From: Octadecabacter algicola
GTDB lineage: Bacteria; Pseudomonadota; Alphaproteobacteria; Rhodobacterales; Rhodobacteraceae
Direction of reading: 5' to 3'
Assembly (NCBI RefSeq): GCF_021532625.1
Contig: NZ_JAKGAR010000004.1
Location: 248,001 to 312,000, forward strand
DNA: 64,000 nucleotides
In this document: piece by piece, positions 2,136 to 13,661 of the stretch
Layout: every line of letters begins with the position of its first letter
How positions within the stretch are numbered: position 1 is the first letter of the stretch
Program-made: the position numbers and the translations under genes
The notes under the pieces: generated by a model
Seen by the model: only the letters and a program-made list of their open reading frames with translations
What the model was told of the DNA's origin: nothing
The model's database searches: none

Positions 2136-4932
2136 TTTAACAGTCGCCGTTGGACACGACACTGCGGCGCCTGACGACCTTATTTGCCCTGCTATCGAAA
2201 TTCTTGACCGTGCGACCCTGCATCGCGACCTTGTCGCTGCACTTGATGCGGCAGGTTCCGAAGGCGCGCAGAAACGGGCCGCCATTGTTCCGATCCTGAA
2301 AGACGCCCTCGCGACCGGCCAAAAAACCATCGCGGATGCGTTCGCTAAGTCACCCTTTGCCGCGGGCCCTACGACGCGGGCCTACGCGTGGTTGACAGAT
2401 TGCATCGTCATCGAAGTGTTCACCCTCGCCAAATCACACCTGCACCCCAACCCCATCCCAACCGACGGCGAACGCTTGGCGTTGATTGCAGTTGGTGGGT
2501 CCGGCCGTGGCGAAATGGCCCCGCATTCTGACGTCGACCTGCTGTTTCTTGCCCCCTACAAACTGACACCATGGGCCGAAAGCTTAATCGAAAGCATGCT
2601 CTACGTGCTTTGGGATTTGCGCCTGAAAGTTGGCCACGCAAGCCGCACAGTCAAGGACTGCCTCCGCCTCGCACGTGAGGATTACACCATCCGCACCAGC
2701 CTCGTCGAAGAACGGTATTTGACCGGCGATGAGGACTTGGCCCAAGAATTGACCGAGAGACTGCGCAACGAGCTGTTCTCTCAAACCATCCCTGATTTCA
2801 TCGAAGCAAAACTCGAAGAACGCGAAGAACGGCACCGCAAGCAAGGCGGCCAGCGTTACATGGTCGAACCCAATGTCAAAGAAGGCAAAGGCGGGTTGCG
2901 CGACCTGCAGTCGCTGTATTGGATCGGCAAATACATCTACGGCGTCAAGAACGCCTCCGAACTGGTTGAGCACAAGGTCTTTACTCAAGACGAGTATGAA
3001 GAATTTAAAGCCGCCCATGAATTTTTGTGGGCCGTTCGCTGCCATTTGCATTTGATCACGGGTCGCGCCGCCGACCAGCTGACGTTTGACATGCAAGTCG
3101 AGGTGGCCGAACGCATGGGATACACCGACAAAGGTGGACGCCGCGCGGTGGAACATTTCATGCAAGACTTCTTTCGACACGCGACCAACGTTGGCGATTT
3201 GACCCGCATCTTCCTAACCGCACAAGAAGCCGCCCACTTAAAGGCCGAGCCGATGCTGCAGCGCCTGTTTGGTCGCAGCAAAAAAGCCAAGGCGCCATAT
3301 GCGATCAAACAGAACCGTCTGACTGTCGAGAAACCCGACGTCTTTCTGGAAGATCCCCTCAACCTGTTGCGGATCTTTGAAGAAGCTTTGCGCACGGGGA
3401 CGTTGATTCATCCGGATGCCATGCGTCTGATCAAATCAAACCTGCATTTGATTGACGACACAATGCGCAACAACAAAGAAGCGCGGCGCATTTTTCTTGA
3501 TTTGATGTTGAAACACGGCAACCCCGAACGGGCGCTGCGTCGCATGAACGAACTTGGCGTACTCGGGGCGTTTATCCCAGAGTTCGAAGCCATCGTCGCG
3601 ATGATGCAGTTCAACATGTATCACCACTACACAGTGGACGAGCATACGATTCAGGTCATCAGCCATTTAGCGCAGATCGAACGCGCTGAGCTCGACGACG
3701 AACTGCCGGTATCGGCGTCCATCATCAAAGACGGCATCAACCGCAAAGTTCTTTATGTAGCGTTACTGCTGCATGACATCGGCAAAGGCCGTGATGAGGA
3801 TCACTCGATCCTTGGAGCAAAGATTGTCCGCAAGGTTGCCCCACGACTTGGGCTGTCCAAGAAGGAATGCGAAACCGTTGAATGGTTGGTGCGGTATCAC
3901 TTGCTGATGTCAGACATGGCACAGAAACGCGACATCGCTGATCCGCGCACAGTGCGTGATTTTGCTAAGGCGGTTAAGACTGTTGAGCGGCTTGATCTGC
4001 TATGCGTTCTGACGGTGTGTGACATTCGTGGCGTTGGCCCGAACACATGGAACAACTGGAAAGCCGTTCTGATACGGGCGCTTTATCGCCAGACCCGTTA
4101 TGCGTTGGAAAACGGCATGGAAGCGCTAAATCGCGAAGAGCGTGGCACCGAGGCCCGCAAAAACCTGCGCGCCGCCTTGCTTGAACAAGACGGATCCGAT
4201 TGGGATGACAAATCCATCCGCAAAGAGATTGCACGCCACTACCCGCCCTATTGGCAGGGTTTGCACGTAACAGCCCATATCGATTTCGCGGAACTGCTGC
4301 GCGGGATTGGCAACGACGAGGTTCGTATCGACCTCACGCCGGATGACGACCGAGATGCGACGCGTGTATGTTTCGCAATGGCCGATCACCCGGGTATCTT
4401 TAGCCGTATGTGTGGCGCGTTGTCTCTTGTTGGGGCGAACGTGGTGGATGCACGGACATTCACGTCCAAAGACGGCTTTGCGACCGCTGCGTTCTGGGTT
4501 CAGGACAGCGATGGCCACCCTTATGAGGAATCCCGTCTGCCGCGGCTGCGCACCATGATCGAAAAAACTCTGCACGGGGATGTCATCGCCGGCACGGCCT
4601 TGGCGGACAAAGACAAGTTCAAGAAGCGCGAGAAAGCGTTCCGCGTGCAAACCTCGATCACCTTCGACAACGACGGGTCCGAGATTTACACCATCATCGA
4701 AGTCGACACTCGTGATCGCCCCGGTCTGTTGTTTGATCTGACCCGCACGCTCGCATCGGCAAACATTTATATCGCAAGCGCGGTTATCGCGACCTATGGC
4801 GAACAGGTGGTGGATACCTTCTATGTTAAGGACATGTTCGGACTAAAATTCAACGCCGAGCACAAACAACAGGCCTTGGAGCGCCGCCTCCGTGAGGCCA
4901 TTGATCAGGGGACGAAACGGGCACGTGCCTAA
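2122..4932 (+). CDS. glnD: [Protein-PII] uridylyltransferase / uridylyl-removing enzyme GlnD
   Basis: Bifunctional nitrogen sensor that uridylylates PII (GlnB/GlnK) when glutamine is low and deuridylylates it when glutamine is high. About 936 residues. The nucleotidyltransferase motif GSGRGEMAPHSDVDLLF lies near residue 125, an HD phosphohydrolase motif HDIGKGRDEDHS near 551, and two ACT domains (glutamine sensing) fill the last 200 residues (DHPGIFSRMCGALSLVGA and DTRDRPGLLFDLTRTL). No ATG is available: possible starts are GTG at 2122 or 2125, or a TTG at 2095 inside the upstream gene. I chose 2122 because it gives an N-terminus of usual length, but no good ribosome site is visible, so the gene may be translationally coupled. 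Confidence 0.95.
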   Translation: MVDLDLTVAVGHDTAAPDDLICPAIEILDRATLHRDLVAALDAAGSEGAQKRAAIVPILKDALATGQKTIADAFAKSPFAAGPTTRAYAWLTDCIVIEVFTLAKSHLHPNPIPTDGERLALIAVGGSGRGEMAPHSDVDLLFLAPYKLTPWAESLIESMLYVLWDLRLKVGHASRTVKDCLRLAREDYTIRTSLVEERYLTGDEDLAQELTERLRNELFSQTIPDFIEAKLEEREERHRKQGGQRYMVEPNVKEGKGGLRDLQSLYWIGKYIYGVKNASELVEHKVFTQDEYEEFKAAHEFLWAVRCHLHLITGRAADQLTFDMQVEVAERMGYTDKGGRRAVEHFMQDFFRHATNVGDLTRIFLTAQEAAHLKAEPMLQRLFGRSKKAKAPYAIKQNRLTVEKPDVFLEDPLNLLRIFEEALRTGTLIHPDAMRLIKSNLHLIDDTMRNNKEARRIFLDLMLKHGNPERALRRMNELGVLGAFIPEFEAIVAMMQFNMYHHYTVDEHTIQVISHLAQIERAELDDELPVSASIIKDGINRKVLYVALLLHDIGKGRDEDHSILGAKIVRKVAPRLGLSKKECETVEWLVRYHLLMSDMAQKRDIADPRTVRDFAKAVKTVERLDLLCVLTVCDIRGVGPNTWNNWKAVLIRALYRQTRYALENGMEALNREERGTEARKNLRAALLEQDGSDWDDKSIRKEIARHYPPYWQGLHVTAHIDFAELLRGIGNDEVRIDLTPDDDRDATRVCFAMADHPGIFSRMCGALSLVGANVVDARTFTSKDGFATAAFWVQDSDGHPYEESRLPRLRTMIEKTLHGDVIAGTALADKDKFKKREKAFRVQTSITFDNDGSEIYTIIEVDTRDRPGLLFDLTRTLASANIYIASAVIATYGEQVVDTFYVKDMFGLKFNAEHKQQALERRLREAIDQGTKRARA

Positions 4933-9692: not shown

Positions 9693-10775
9693 GTGATCCT
9701 CCGCGCGTTGGCCCTTTTACACCTTGGGCTACTTCTTTTGCCATTTGGTCTGACGCTGGCCTGTGTTGTTTGGCTGGTTAAGCAATCTCCTTTTGCCGCT
9801 CCGCTGATGGATCGCACTTCAGAACAGATTGAGGCCCGCCTGACCCGCGCGATGGCACGTGATGTGGACCTAGCGTGGCTTTTGCCTCGGGTGCAGGATG
9901 CAATAATCCAAAAAGATCTTATCCAAATGGATATGCTGGTCGGGTTGGCCAACGACCACGGCGTCGTTCTGCCGCGAACAATGGTCGAGGACATGATCGA
10001 GATTGACGCCGAAACTCACGGCCTATTCGCACGCAGTGTGCGTTGCGGGTCATGCGCGGTTAATGTGGCGAACTGTGATAGCTTGGCGCAAATCGGGGCC
10101 TGTGCCTTGCCGTTTGAACTGACCCCAGCAGGAGATGTGAATGCTTTGCGCCGCGCGGGACTGGACTACGTGGCCGGTGATGCCATTGATCGGCTCGATG
10201 TCGGGTTGGCAGTTGTGGGCCTTGGCGCGACAGGGGCGGTGATTGCTACTGGTGGTACCAGTTATACCGTTAAGGCTGGCACATCAGTTTTACGCATGGC
10301 GCGGCGGTTGGGCACATTGAGCCCCGAATTAACCACGCGGCTGACCGGATTAATCGGCGATGCAGTATATTGGGACCGGATGGGTGATTTGGCAGCGTTA
10401 CGCATGAGCCCTGCGGATATGGTGAATAACGTCAAACTAGGTGAGTTGACCGAAATCGGTGGATCACTGCGCCGTGTCGCCGATTATACGTCCGTCGCTG
10501 AGACCGTTTCACTGGTCCGGCACGTCGATAACGCACAAGAGGCGGCGCAGCTGGCACGCGTCACGGACGCATTAGGGCCCAAGACACGCGGCGCGTTCGA
10601 GGTTTTGGGCAAAACCCGCGTCCTACGGGCAACTGCCCGGCTTAGCGATCTGGCGATCGGCGCAGGAGTGGCAATCTATGCTTTGGTGATGCAGATCTTG
10701 GTATTTGGCGCGCAACAATGTGGCAATATTTGCCTGCGAGGTATCGGAAGGGCGGCTGGCGGACGGCGCGCCTAA
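9693..10775 (+). CDS. Unknown membrane-anchored protein
   Basis: 360 residues, GTG start with GAGG six bases upstream. I do not recognise the family. Visible features: an N-terminal membrane segment (LLLLPFGLTLACVVWLV), a soluble part with four Cys residues in the stretch SVRCGSCAVNVANCDSL..GAC (residues about 115-133), a hydrophobic glycine-rich segment near 170-190 (LAVVGLGATGAVIATGG), a helical region, and a C-terminal membrane segment (AIGAGVAIYALVMQILVF). The codon use resembles its neighbours. It is monocistronic between a terminator and the UspA gene. The Cys cluster could bind metal or form disulfides; that is a guess. Confidence 0.7.
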   Translation: MILRALALLHLGLLLLPFGLTLACVVWLVKQSPFAAPLMDRTSEQIEARLTRAMARDVDLAWLLPRVQDAIIQKDLIQMDMLVGLANDHGVVLPRTMVEDMIEIDAETHGLFARSVRCGSCAVNVANCDSLAQIGACALPFELTPAGDVNALRRAGLDYVAGDAIDRLDVGLAVVGLGATGAVIATGGTSYTVKAGTSVLRMARRLGTLSPELTTRLTGLIGDAVYWDRMGDLAALRMSPADMVNNVKLGELTEIGGSLRRVADYTSVAETVSLVRHVDNAQEAAQLARVTDALGPKTRGAFEVLGKTRVLRATARLSDLAIGAGVAIYALVMQILVFGAQQCGNICLRGIGRAAGGRRA

Positions 10776-10839
10776 GTCACATAGAGATTGCGCCAAGACC
10801 CATCGTCCTGCAAAGTTAGCTGACTTTAGGGAGACTCAC

Positions 10840-11295
10840 ATGCGCAAGTTCCTCGTGATCTTAGATGACAGCCGTGAATGTTTGAACGCGATGCGGTTTG
10901 CCGCGATGCGTGCAGCCAATACCGGCGGCGGTGTGGAAGTGTTGTCGATCATTCCACCAGATGAGTTCAACCACTGGATTGGCGTCGGCGAAGTAATGCG
11001 TGCAGAAACACGCGAACGCATTGAGGTTCATTTCGAAGTCTTCGCCAAATGGATGCGTGACAAACAAGGCGTCGACCCTGAATTGGTCATCCGCGAAGGC
11101 GTTCCCGTAAAAGAGATCATGGCGCAGATCGCCGAAGACCCCGATGTCGGCGTTTTGGTGCTTGGGGCTGCAACTGGCAAGAAAGGTCCTGGACCCTTGA
11201 TCTCTGCTTTGACGAAACAGGCGGGCGAATTACCGATCCCGATGACAATCGTCCCCGGCGAGATGTCAAAAGAGCGGCTTCAGGCGATCACCTAG
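10840..11295 (+). CDS. Universal stress protein, UspA family
   Basis: 151 residues from ATG 10840, preceded by AGGGAG; a longer upstream frame exists but lacks a good start. The single Usp domain begins KFLVILDDSRECLNAMRFAA. The nucleotide-binding-type C-terminus VLVLGAATGKKGPGPLISAL replaces the canonical GxxGxxxxxxGS pattern with lysine and proline, so ATP binding is uncertain. Likely a cytoplasmic stress protein of unknown partner. The upstream spacing suggests its own promoter. Confidence 0.85.
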   Translation: MRKFLVILDDSRECLNAMRFAAMRAANTGGGVEVLSIIPPDEFNHWIGVGEVMRAETRERIEVHFEVFAKWMRDKQGVDPELVIREGVPVKEIMAQIAEDPDVGVLVLGAATGKKGPGPLISALTKQAGELPIPMTIVPGEMSKERLQAIT

Positions 11296-11750
11296 TCCGC
11301 GACTCGGCCTTGTTTACAGATCAACCTAACATCTCGAAGCCGTTTTCGGCCCGTTTCTCGGGGCCTATTCACCTAAATTTCGGTTAGATTTCTCACCGCA
11401 GCGCGAGATGTGTGAAATATTTTCACCTCACGTTTTTGCGTTACCCCAGTCACCGTGAACGTTTGAAAGAAACAACTGTGCATTCCCGCACAGTCGCCTC
11501 AGGCGCTCTGTGCGCCTACGGCCTTTTGGCCCCTATTGCGGTCATTTTCGGGATTACAAGGGGTGTGACACCACACGAAATGCTCAGTTTTTCGTGAACG
11601 GCAGCGGGGTTTTCGAGCGCCGTTTTTGGCCCCAGTTTCATCTCATCGAAACGCAGAACAACACTGCAACGACAGAAATCAAACCGCCGAACGTACAACA
11701 TATACGAACGGCAAATCACTCAGCCCAAACGGGCACAGAAAGGAAACACC
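11296..11750. other. 455-bp gene-free stretch upstream of the duplicated secreted-protein genes
   Basis: No credible ORF. It contains a GC hairpin soon after the UspA gene (GGCCCG at 11348-11353 with CGGGGCC at 11359-11365, one bulge), which may terminate that transcript. A perfect six-base-pair hairpin follows (CTGTGC at 11476-11481 with GCACAG at 11488-11493). Several T-rich runs follow GC patches. The length and structure would fit a long leader or a small RNA, but nothing identifies one. Confidence 0.4.
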
Positions 11751-12084
11751 ATGTTCAAATCCGTACCCCTCGCTCTCGCAGCAATCGCAGCTTCCGCAAC
11801 TATCGCTTCCGCTGACGTCTCTTACCTGTCCAACTTTGCTGAAGAGCAGACAAACGACAAAATCGTTGAGCTCGGCACAGTGCGCTCTGCCGGTGACGGT
11901 GTTGTCGAAATCTACTCCTACAACGCTGGCCAAATCGGCGACCTGTTGGGTACACAAGCGGTACACGAAGGTGCAAACGCTAACGTTGACGTCAACATCA
12001 CAAGCACTCGCACCGACGCTATCGCCCTTCTGAAAGTGAACGGCCAAGTCGTCGACAGCCAAGAAATCGACTTCAACTAAGACG
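11738..12084 (+). repeat. 347-bp direct repeat, copy 1
   Basis: Runs from the ribosome-binding site (GAAAGGAAACACC) through the whole coding sequence to four bases past the stop codon. It is identical to 12187-12533, and the period is 449 bp. Bases on both sides differ, so the identity ends sharply at the gene borders. Confidence 0.95.
11751..12080 (+). CDS. Small secreted protein, copy 1 of an identical tandem pair
   Basis: 109 residues. A signal peptide (MFKSVPLALAAIAASATIASA, cleavage before DVSYL) is followed by an 88-residue acidic mature domain of beta-strand type (GDGVVEIYSYNAGQIGDLLG, then AIALLKVNGQVVDSQEIDF). It is faintly reminiscent of DUF7282-type extracellular domains, but I do not claim membership. 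A good ribosome site (AAAGGA) precedes the ATG. The coding sequence is identical, base for base, to the gene at 12200. A GC hairpin without a T run lies just downstream. Confidence 0.85.
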   Translation: MFKSVPLALAAIAASATIASADVSYLSNFAEEQTNDKIVELGTVRSAGDGVVEIYSYNAGQIGDLLGTQAVHEGANANVDVNITSTRTDAIALLKVNGQVVDSQEIDFN

Positions 12085-12090
12085 TCCCTC

Positions 12091-12129
12091 GGTCGGCCCT
12101 AGCTCTGCCCCCCTTGAACGGGGCCGACC
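12091..12129 (+). terminator. GC hairpin between the duplicated genes
   Basis: GGTCGGCCC (12091-12099) pairs perfectly with GGGCCGACC (12121-12129). No T run follows, so it may be a weak or processing hairpin that protects the 3' end of the first message. Confidence 0.5.
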
Positions 12130-12186
12130 ACCCTAACCTCATATCGACCAAACCCATAAACCCAAATCCGCCCTAACTGGGCACTC

Positions 12187-12533
12187 GAAAGGAAACACCA
12201 TGTTCAAATCCGTACCCCTCGCTCTCGCAGCAATCGCAGCTTCCGCAACTATCGCTTCCGCTGACGTCTCTTACCTGTCCAACTTTGCTGAAGAGCAGAC
12301 AAACGACAAAATCGTTGAGCTCGGCACAGTGCGCTCTGCCGGTGACGGTGTTGTCGAAATCTACTCCTACAACGCTGGCCAAATCGGCGACCTGTTGGGT
12401 ACACAAGCGGTACACGAAGGTGCAAACGCTAACGTTGACGTCAACATCACAAGCACTCGCACCGACGCTATCGCCCTTCTGAAAGTGAACGGCCAAGTCG
12501 TCGACAGCCAAGAAATCGACTTCAACTAAGACG
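12187..12533 (+). repeat. 347-bp direct repeat, copy 2
   Basis: Identical to 11738-12084 (ribosome site, coding sequence and the GACG after the stop). The two spacers and downstream hairpins are different sequences. Confidence 0.95.
12200..12529 (+). CDS. Small secreted protein, copy 2 of an identical tandem pair
   Basis: 109 residues, identical in DNA and protein to the gene at 11751: Sec signal peptide and an acidic mature domain of unknown function. The 119-bp spacer between the copies shows no obvious promoter. The second copy may therefore be read from the first promoter, increasing dosage. It is followed by a strong rho-independent terminator at 12560, so the pair forms one transcription unit. 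Identity at all synonymous positions means a very recent duplication or ongoing gene conversion. Confidence 0.85.
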   Translation: MFKSVPLALAAIAASATIASADVSYLSNFAEEQTNDKIVELGTVRSAGDGVVEIYSYNAGQIGDLLGTQAVHEGANANVDVNITSTRTDAIALLKVNGQVVDSQEIDFN

Positions 12534-12559
12534 ACCTTCCTCCCTGTCTCTCCCCGCTG

Positions 12560-12594
12560 CGGGCCGTCCACTAAGGGCGGCCCGTTCGCGTTTT
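12560..12594 (+). terminator. Rho-independent terminator after the duplicated pair
   Basis: CGGGCCGTCC (12560-12569) pairs with GGGCGGCCCG (12575-12584) through ten pairs with one G-U, loop ACTAA. TTCGCGTTTT follows. Confidence 0.8.
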
Positions 12595-12610
12595 AGAACC
12601 ATTCCAAACC

Positions 12611-12642
12611 TTGACACTATGTGGACACAGGCGCATATATAA
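12611..12642 (+). promoter_or_regulatory. Sigma70-type promoter for the NifU-like gene
   Basis: A perfect TTGACA at 12611-12616 is followed, 17-19 bp on, by the AT-rich CATATATAA (12634-12642), which supplies a -10 close to TATAAT. The start codon is 26 bp further on. Confidence 0.6.
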
Positions 12643-12667
12643 ATCCTGACAAAAAAGGTTTATTCCG

Positions 12668-13228
12668 ATGTTTATCCAGACAGAAACCACACCGAACCCA
12701 GCAACATTGAAATTCTTGCCCGGACAAACTGTGCTTGAAATGGGGACCGCTGATTTTCCAAGCGCCGACGCAGCAGGCAAGAGCCCGCTGGCCGCGCGTG
12801 TGTTTGCGGTTGAAGGCGTGACGGGCGTGTTCTTCGGCACGGATTTCGTGACCGTCACGAAAGCGGAAACTGTGGAATGGGATCACATCAAGCCTGCAAT
12901 TCTTGGCGCTATCATGGAGCACTATCAGTCCGGTGCCGCGGTGATTGAAGGCGAACAAGAGGCGTCCGGCCACGCAGAGCACACTGGTGAAGATGGTGAG
13001 ATCGTCAACCAGATTAAGGAATTGCTGGATACGCGCGTTCGCCCAGCAGTTGCACAAGATGGCGGTGACATCACGTTCCACGGCTTTGATCGCGGTGTAG
13101 TCTACCTGCATATGCAGGGCGCTTGTGCTGGCTGCCCGAGTTCTACATTGACGTTGAAAATGGGTATCGAAAACCTGCTGCGCCACTATATCCCAGAAGT
13201 GGTCGAAGTTCGGCCCGTCGCGGCGTAA
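12668..13228 (+). CDS. NifU-family Fe-S cluster scaffold/carrier (Nfu type)
   Basis: 186 residues. The N-terminal Nfu_N domain begins MFIQTETTPNPATLKFLPG, and the C-terminal NifU domain has the CxxC motif ACAGCPSS (near residue 156) that holds a 4Fe-4S cluster between two subunits. Length and layout match mitochondrial NFU1 and alphaproteobacterial Nfu, which deliver clusters to lipoate synthase, aconitase and similar enzymes. The GFA gene starts 4 bp after it. Confidence 0.93.
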   Translation: MFIQTETTPNPATLKFLPGQTVLEMGTADFPSADAAGKSPLAARVFAVEGVTGVFFGTDFVTVTKAETVEWDHIKPAILGAIMEHYQSGAAVIEGEQEASGHAEHTGEDGEIVNQIKELLDTRVRPAVAQDGGDITFHGFDRGVVYLHMQGACAGCPSSTLTLKMGIENLLRHYIPEVVEVRPVAA

Positions 13229-13232
13229 TCGC

Positions 13233-13661
13233 ATGACCGAACAACGGAATATCGGGCGCTGCTATTGCGGCGCCTGTTCCATTTCTACCTCGGCCGATCC
13301 CTCCACGGTCCTGTACTGCCATTGCTCAGACTGCAGGCGGTGGACTGGAGCAGCACTGCCAGCATTTGTAGCTTTCGCGACAGATGATGTAGCCGTAACC
13401 CCAAATGTAAACAGTGCACGTTATGAAAGCGGTGCCGTGCGCCAAAACTGTCCTGATTGTGGATCGCCTCTTACGGCAGCATTCCCTTATTTGCCGGATC
13501 AGATCTATGTGCCTGTGGGGGTGCTGAATAATCCAGATCACTATCCACCACAGTTACATTGTCATGTGGCATCCAAACCCAAATGGCTCCATATCGAGGA
13601 TGATTTGGCCCGAGTAACAGCATCGGGGCGCGATACCTTGAATGAGGCCTTTGATGACTGA
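13233..13661 (+). CDS. GFA-family protein (CENP-V/GFA, zinc-binding)
   Basis: 142 residues. Conserved cysteines appear as GRCYCGACS, YCHCSDCRRWTGA and QNCPDCGSPL, the zinc-binding pattern of the GFA (DUF636) family. The name comes from glutathione-dependent formaldehyde-activating enzyme, but for most members the reaction is unproven. The last eight bases overlap the start of tsaB, so the gene is likely cotranscribed with the upstream nfu and the downstream tsaB and rimI. Confidence 0.85.
   Translation: MTEQRNIGRCYCGACSISTSADPSTVLYCHCSDCRRWTGAALPAFVAFATDDVAVTPNVNSARYESGAVRQNCPDCGSPLTAAFPYLPDQIYVPVGVLNNPDHYPPQLHCHVASKPKWLHIEDDLARVTASGRDTLNEAFDD

Follow-up and report, generated by a model that had tools for sequence, protein, structure and literature searches.

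Two adjacent genes that are identical at every base, and whose identity ends at the gene edges, raise the question of how such a pair arose and what keeps it uniform. We addressed this in Octadecabacter algicola (G000 among the 19 Octadecabacter genomes that we compared), where the locus lies in a window of 64,000 bp, i.e., the whole stretch of DNA that was analysed, taken from contig C10 in a 3.4-Mb genome of 14 contigs. A segment at 11738-12084 is repeated exactly at 12187-12533 (347/347 bases, + strand, spacing 449), and each 347-bp unit holds 13 bases 5' of the ATG (the ribosome-site region), a 330-bp reading frame including its stop codon, and four further bases. The two coding sequences (11751-12080 and 12200-12529, both on the + strand) encode the same protein of 109 amino acids. 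Beyond the repeat edges the ungapped identity is 29/100 bases upstream and 31/100 downstream, against ~25% for random sequence, and a search of the + strand across all 64 kb found no further repeated 25-mer. The first-pass annotation of this DNA had described base-identical twin genes with identity ending at the gene edges, which these counts confirm; its description of the flanks as unrelated holds for 100 bases on each side, while the spacer between the copies may hold a degenerate copy of the leader of copy 1 (see below). The pair is enclosed by two conserved genes: on the left a universal stress protein (USP) gene (10840-11295, +; Pfam Usp E 5.3e-11), which is also the left neighbour in relatives, and on the right a NifU-like iron-sulphur scaffold gene (12668-13228, +; Pfam Nfu_N E 6.8e-33, NifU E 4.8e-29). 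Beside the USP gene lies a 360-aa frame (9693-10775) without a Pfam match, which is present in some relatives and was undetected between TrpS and USP in others (e.g., G003).

Judged by eye, the protein starts with a signal peptide of ~21 residues (cleavage between ..ATIASA and DVS), and its mature part carries a net charge of -10 and no cysteine, in agreement with the earlier reading of a signal peptide plus an acidic mature domain; we infer that it acts on the cell surface or within the periplasm. An AlphaFold model (pLDDT 82.4) has six strands from residue 38 onward, and the mature domain is predicted to be a beta-sandwich. A Foldseek comparison against solved structures returned no match at E up to 0.001, and the best VIA-align result reached Z 8.2 with an rmsd of 2.3 over 79 residues, a level that can mean a common arrangement only. 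The weak beta-sandwich fold matches included carbohydrate-binding modules, SoxY, immunoglobulin and fibronectin-III domains and GH2 side domains, and a function based on such PDB fold matches was rejected, the matches being too weak. Searches by sequence at E up to 1 found nothing in the PDB, nor in Pfam for the window protein, DUF7282 (PF23951) included. Across the family, weak profile similarity to DUF7282 over residues ~30-99 was seen in 7/12 members at E up to 1, and in 5/20 family members at E up to 0.01. DUF7282 is therewith the nearest named family, but the secreted protein stays under its cut-off; membership was rejected because the best member reached 26.3 bits, short of the gathering score of 27. 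Four weak NCBIfam matches, each in one or two of 12 members, were judged to be chance. Phage records held no match to the family, and plasmid records held one, in O. antarcticus 307. In addition, family matches were seen within open reading frames that span 349 to 538 codons, at L003 (G000:C10:135737-135922) and in G149 (C12), G199, G301 (C3) and G320; these are mostly weak (4.6e-19 in G149, 2.5e-4 to 0.015 in the others) and perhaps represent the same domain in larger proteins.

Copy 1 is preceded by a conserved leader that ends in the ribosome site (11625-11750, +; delimited from leader alignments, fold z -3.2). These ~125 bases 5' of copy 1 are conserved across the genus and contain small hairpins (GCAG..CTGC, CCGCC..GGC and GCCC-AAAC-GGGC), and the same leader also precedes dispersed family copies elsewhere in O. 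antarcticus, O. dasysiphoniae (G016) and an Octadecabacter metagenome assembly (G017). A covariance model built from 10 leaders gave 19 matches at E up to 0.01 in 11/19 genus genomes, 9/19 of them from outside those 10, and each of the 19 terminates at the start codon of a secreted-protein family member, under a model that includes the ribosome site and ATG, which favours finding starts. As far as tested, with 150 first-look candidates scored per genome out of 1126-2758, the leader appears to be private to this family in Octadecabacter. The core motif of the leader (TCATCGA or CATCGAA) lies at most 300 bases upstream in 13/40 listed family members, a raw count in which some genes are listed twice. 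RNAalifold predicted one 4-bp hairpin only, in which both bases of one pair are changed in 3/16 sequences; the leader thus appears as a conserved sequence, with weak covariation support for its predicted structure. No Rfam match was obtained at E up to 1 over 10700-13300, and a sigma-70 promoter scan found none.

The two copies are separated by a unique spacer of 102 bp (12085-12186, +), in which the leader model finds a possible degenerate leader ending at the second ATG (12092-12202; 34.7 bits, E 0.0017), a score that owes part of its value to 16 common bases (ribosome site plus ATG). Compared with its own upstream sequence without the ribosome site, the spacer scored only 30, a value that 29/500 shuffles also attained. 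The full leader is missing before second copies, copy 2 of the window giving this weak match and copy 2 of G003 and G005 none with the leader model. A small hairpin (12170-12182) precedes the second ribosome site. A second, strong and G+C-rich hairpin in the spacer (12091-12129) is not a typical intrinsic terminator because it has no T-run; perhaps it serves to stabilise a joint transcript or to process it. Downstream of copy 2 lies a terminator-like hairpin (12555-12594, +; fold z -4.2) with an 11-bp stem at 12559-12585 and TTTT at 12591-12594, so that the terminator which had been assigned to the second unit at first sight is real. It is alignable in relatives, and the 3' flank similarity to each of G005, G003, G001 and G008 exceeds 200/200 shuffles; a simple terminator scan, which requires five T, listed neither hairpin. 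With a single conserved leader in front of copy 1 and a hairpin terminator behind copy 2, both copies would probably be carried on one transcript.

Codon usage in the gene is extreme, with 30/31 informative pyrimidine-ending codons ending in C, a test of 31 codons only, as compared to a mean of 0.57 (sd 0.12, maximum 0.84) in 47 mechanically chosen ORFs from the window, each 150 codons or longer. Bias in this comparison set is strongest in five ORFs for TCA-cycle enzymes, namely malate dehydrogenase, SucB, SdhA and both succinyl-CoA ligase subunits. The other full-length copies at the site between the USP and NifU genes have a C-ending fraction of 0.71 to 0.96. The bias suggests very high expression of the secreted-protein gene, and it lends indirect support to the earlier proposal that high dosage may be selected. 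On balance, we lean towards the view that dosage of a single product is selected, with one transcript as its probable source.

The USP-NifU site was then compared across the genus, including O. ascidiaceicola (G001), Octadecabacter sp. B2R22 (G005) and O. antarcticus 307 (G006, whose small contig is the plasmid pOA307_63). Two copies occupy the site in 3/19 genomes (G000, G003, G005) and one copy in 5/19 (G001, G008, G014, G016, G017), while 2/19 have a contig broken within the secreted-protein gene (G004, G011), one has a remnant of 66 codons (G006), one has a leader-like sequence without a gene (G002; judged by eye and absent from the leader-model matches) and four have no gene and a gap of 99-273 bases (G007, G012, G013, G015); the state was not scored in 3/19 (G009, G010, G018). 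In the genus, 30 places were found and 26 read as coding sequences (leaving out G017:C160, G004:C86, G017:C99 and, below the cut, G004:C17), and 21/26 of these entered the gene tree, which left out G003b and G015 as distant members, as well as three fragments at contig edges. In G003 and G005, the coding identity between the copies is 312/330 (94.5%) and 321/339 (94.7%), so that all three two-copy site arrays are 94.5-100% identical at the nucleotide level within the genome and at most 77% identical in protein to any other species' full-length copy. The flanks of the copies in these three pairs have 53-63% gapped global identity, about background. For the window copies, protein identity is 64-66% to G003 and 62-64% to G005, as against 89-90% (G003) and 99% (G005) for the products of the adjacent NifU and USP genes. 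G003, G005, G016 and the window each have their copies in a group of their own in the gene tree. The six type-A copies of G006 also group together, with the G007 copy included, and the two G017 copies do not group; the G016 and G017 pairs, whose copies lie at different sites, are 83.8% and 66.7% identical, respectively. Read from sequence comparison, this has the pattern of concerted evolution, i.e., copies within a genome are closer than copies between species while their flanks have diverged.

O. antarcticus carries copies of both allele types of the mature domain, A and B, that are described below. Its remnant at the canonical site (L133, G006:C2:4026500-4033500, 3848-4048) has a type-B end; a further six copies, of type A, are found elsewhere in the chromosome and one of type B on the plasmid. 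Two copy clusters (L034 and L035, G006:C2) stand beside what seems to be a duplication that comprises LytTR, MipA-like and FAA-hydrolase-like genes, one of them near an integrase-core transposase, and the copy at L036 has an IS91-type transposase and an integrase nearby (Pfam was run on L034 and L036 only). On pOA307_63 (L145, 4001-4339 and 5137-5451), the family copy is ~0.8 kb from a recombinase-family gene.

A second pattern concerns sister species, in which the leader, signal peptide and neighbouring genes match and the mature domain is, by its sequence divergence, a different and older allele (A vs B). A tree of four flanking genes unites G000 with G005 (100/100) and G014 with G017 (100/99). 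Between G000 and G005, the 11 flanking genes with an estimate have dN 0.002-0.075 and dS 0.18-0.78 and the signal peptide is identical at 65/66 bases, as compared to dN 0.42-0.44 and dS 1.16-1.19 in the mature domain; because this dS exceeds that of all 11 flanking genes, the allele looks older and not merely subject to faster protein change. For G014 and G017, the corresponding values are dN 0.001-0.083 and dS 0.05-0.39 in eight flanking genes with an estimate, dN 0.46 and dS 2.9 in the mature domain, and 84-90% identity in the leader. In 50-base windows, identity between G000 and G005 is 94-100% where the start lies at -146 to +4 relative to the ATG, 50-72% across the mature domain, and 82-100% once more from +343 into NifU, and in both sister pairs identity drops at the end of the signal peptide and returns just past the stop codon. 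The mature domain is not the sole variable stretch between G000 and G005, since the intergenic part nearest USP is also divergent (52-76% at about -460 to -400). In the gene tree, type B forms a clade (100/99) of G005, G014, G001 and the O. antarcticus plasmid copy, and the AU test rejects the groupings G000+G005 (p 0.0015) and G014+G017a (p 0.0008). Sister species do not always differ: a fragment in G004 (45 residues) is of type A like its sister G003, which it matches at 41/45 by eye. Overall, these comparisons point very strongly to a cassette-like exchange of mature domains between lineages as an evolutionary event.

The spacers bear on the extent of that exchange. No alignment was obtained between those of G000 and G005 (score 18; shuffle mean 19.9) or between those of G003 and G005 (17 vs shuffle 16.3), and those of G000 and G003 align weakly (31 vs a maximum of 30 in 500 shuffles). 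As the G000 and G005 spacers do not align, replacement of the whole block, with mature domains 1 and 2 at its ends, is the simplest reading for this pair; the replaced block between the window species and its sister would probably comprise mature domain 1, the spacer and mature domain 2, with the divergent allele entering via homologous recombination in the leader/signal-peptide region and the 3' flank. The incoming allele may have come from another species or from within the cell, out of a paralogue or a plasmid copy; the latter is conceivable because O. antarcticus carries both A and B types. It could further be imagined that the site is a fixed docking site with a private leader, a near-constant signal peptide and a fixed terminator, at which two ancient and divergent alleles for the mature domain of a highly abundant exported protein pass between Octadecabacter species, the incoming one then being spread to the adjacent copy by gene conversion, in a trans-species balanced dimorphism of a product at the surface or in the periplasm, as for a phage receptor or recognition protein; we hold this to be rather unlikely as it stands. 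That the protein is a recognised surface protein is speculative, and we give it an equally modest chance.

With regard to the identity of the two window copies, we consider that the pair was probably homogenised by gene conversion, which is seen in its pattern only. Conversion is favoured over recent duplication because a head-to-tail duplication should leave a second version of the spacer or of a flank, and neither is present: a search for the spacer in a flank, the mark of simple tandem duplication, found none. The G003 and G005 arrays, in which the two copies resemble each other far more than they do the window copies and the borders lie near the gene edges, likewise support the preference for conversion that had been expressed from the window alone. 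Clustering of differences, the mark of conversion tracts, is significant in 2/7 pairs, namely in G003 (18 differences, a 119-base identical run, P 0.004) and in 1/5 tested pairs of O. antarcticus (P 0.002), and is not significant in G005 (P 0.20); the window pair has zero differences. An old duplication in which the leader decayed and the coding part was homogenised would fit the second copies without a full leader. A very recent one-time copying of the 347-bp piece (ribosome site plus gene) in the window's lineage would also leave zero differences in 347 bp, would agree with the single-copy state being common at the site (5/19 genus genomes) and, given that the G000 and G005 spacers are unrelated, the arrays need not share one duplication. 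However, an ordinary tandem duplication repeats the spacer in a flank, the possible degenerate leader before copy 2 is what an old duplication would leave, and G003 and G005 hold two-copy arrays at the same site, so that we regard recent copying as distinctly unlikely. Conceivable, though less likely, is that each species duplicated the gene separately and that the spacers decayed afterwards; this is in line with spacers that do not align (or, for G000 and G003, align weakly).

Another way to obtain an identical pair would be to acquire it, a two-gene block already homogenised having recently entered from another Octadecabacter by recombination in the conserved flanks, so that the identity is the donor's state. 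This is what one would expect where the spacer and both mature domains differ between G000 and G005 and the leader, signal peptide and 3' flank match, but it names no candidate donor, as none of the full-length copies in the 18 other genus genomes exceeds 66% protein identity to the window copies, and it moves homogenisation into the donor, where conversion is still required; we consider it unlikely. An assembly artefact, with one gene written twice, comes to mind since exact repeats of such size can confuse short-read assembly and since the G004 and G011 contigs break within the secreted-protein gene. It is highly improbable nevertheless, because the copies have different left and right neighbours with a unique 102-bp spacer between them, and the two-copy array recurs in two other genomes with distinct spacers. 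Conversion thus remains our preferred account of the identity, and as a whole the combination of a two-gene unit, conversion, dosage selection and allele replacement seems likely to us as the best explanation. The two-gene locus would make the same abundant exported beta-sandwich protein twice, and a non-reciprocal recombination of the RecA type would write one coding sequence over the other, both RecA and the direction being presumed. The copies would stay identical while the spacer drifts, the last conversion in the window having been recent enough for zero differences in 347 bp, and selection for high output of one uniform product, to which the codon bias points, would probably maintain the pair.

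A profile search extended the family beyond the genus, with relatives in 28/295 genomes sampled from the taxonomic family (27/294 genera), and at least two matches within 1.5 kb of each other in 10/28 of those genomes. Diverged arrays with 63-81% identity between copies occur in G084, G122, G149, G200 and G271, and close-copy arrays in G131 (94-98%, partly across contigs) and G074 (100%); in G290, two of four copies are 94.5% identical and the remaining pairs 69-87%. The G074 pair, unlike the window pair, is part of a 673-bp exact repeat that extends past the gene. Between Yoonia ponticola and a near relative, copy 1 is 97.9% identical to copy 1 and copy 2 is 96.4% identical to copy 2, as against 86-88% between copy 1 and copy 2, values by which each copy follows its own line in these two genomes. 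Relatives with independently diverged copies, which the first-pass annotation had held against conversion, are thus absent among the Octadecabacter site arrays and present in the Yoonia ponticola pair. Because the Yoonia copies diverged separately and several other arrays have diverged, homogenisation is not a family-wide rule. In Yoonia, 19/19 orthologous differences are shared with the paralogue, which we considered as a sign of conversion and rejected, since a single mutation explains each equally.

The class of phenomenon is known. In meningococcal TpsA the 5' part is said to stay constant and the downstream domain to be exchanged, and the window gene family is alike in this; a 3' end exchange in this exported protein is reported in PMC3848433. 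In contrast to TpsA, the neighbours of the window gene are stress-protein and NifU genes, its protein has ~88 residues once processed, and the family shows two whole-domain allele types. Concerted evolution in prokaryotes, as presented by Wang and Chen 2018 (PMC6053082) for 26 genes, means that within-genome paralogues are more alike than between-species orthologues and is attributed to recurrent gene conversion. The window paralogues resemble those genes in being closer than between-species orthologues, and differ in that the unit encodes a tiny exported protein, the homogenised segment stops at the gene edges and the family's mature domain also turns over between species. Among the best matches listed from the open-licence literature, we found no description of the gene family, its private leader or its allele exchange, and that literature yielded no mention of DUF7282; judged by it, these three features appear to be undescribed. 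The locus offers a natural case in which, at one 1-kb site, within-genome homogenisation is separable from between-lineage exchange of an exported domain, and the conserved genes on both sides serve as a clock. If it is as abundant as the codon usage suggests, this small protein without a name may rank among the main exported products of these bacteria, and its two allele types hint at a selective agent to look for.
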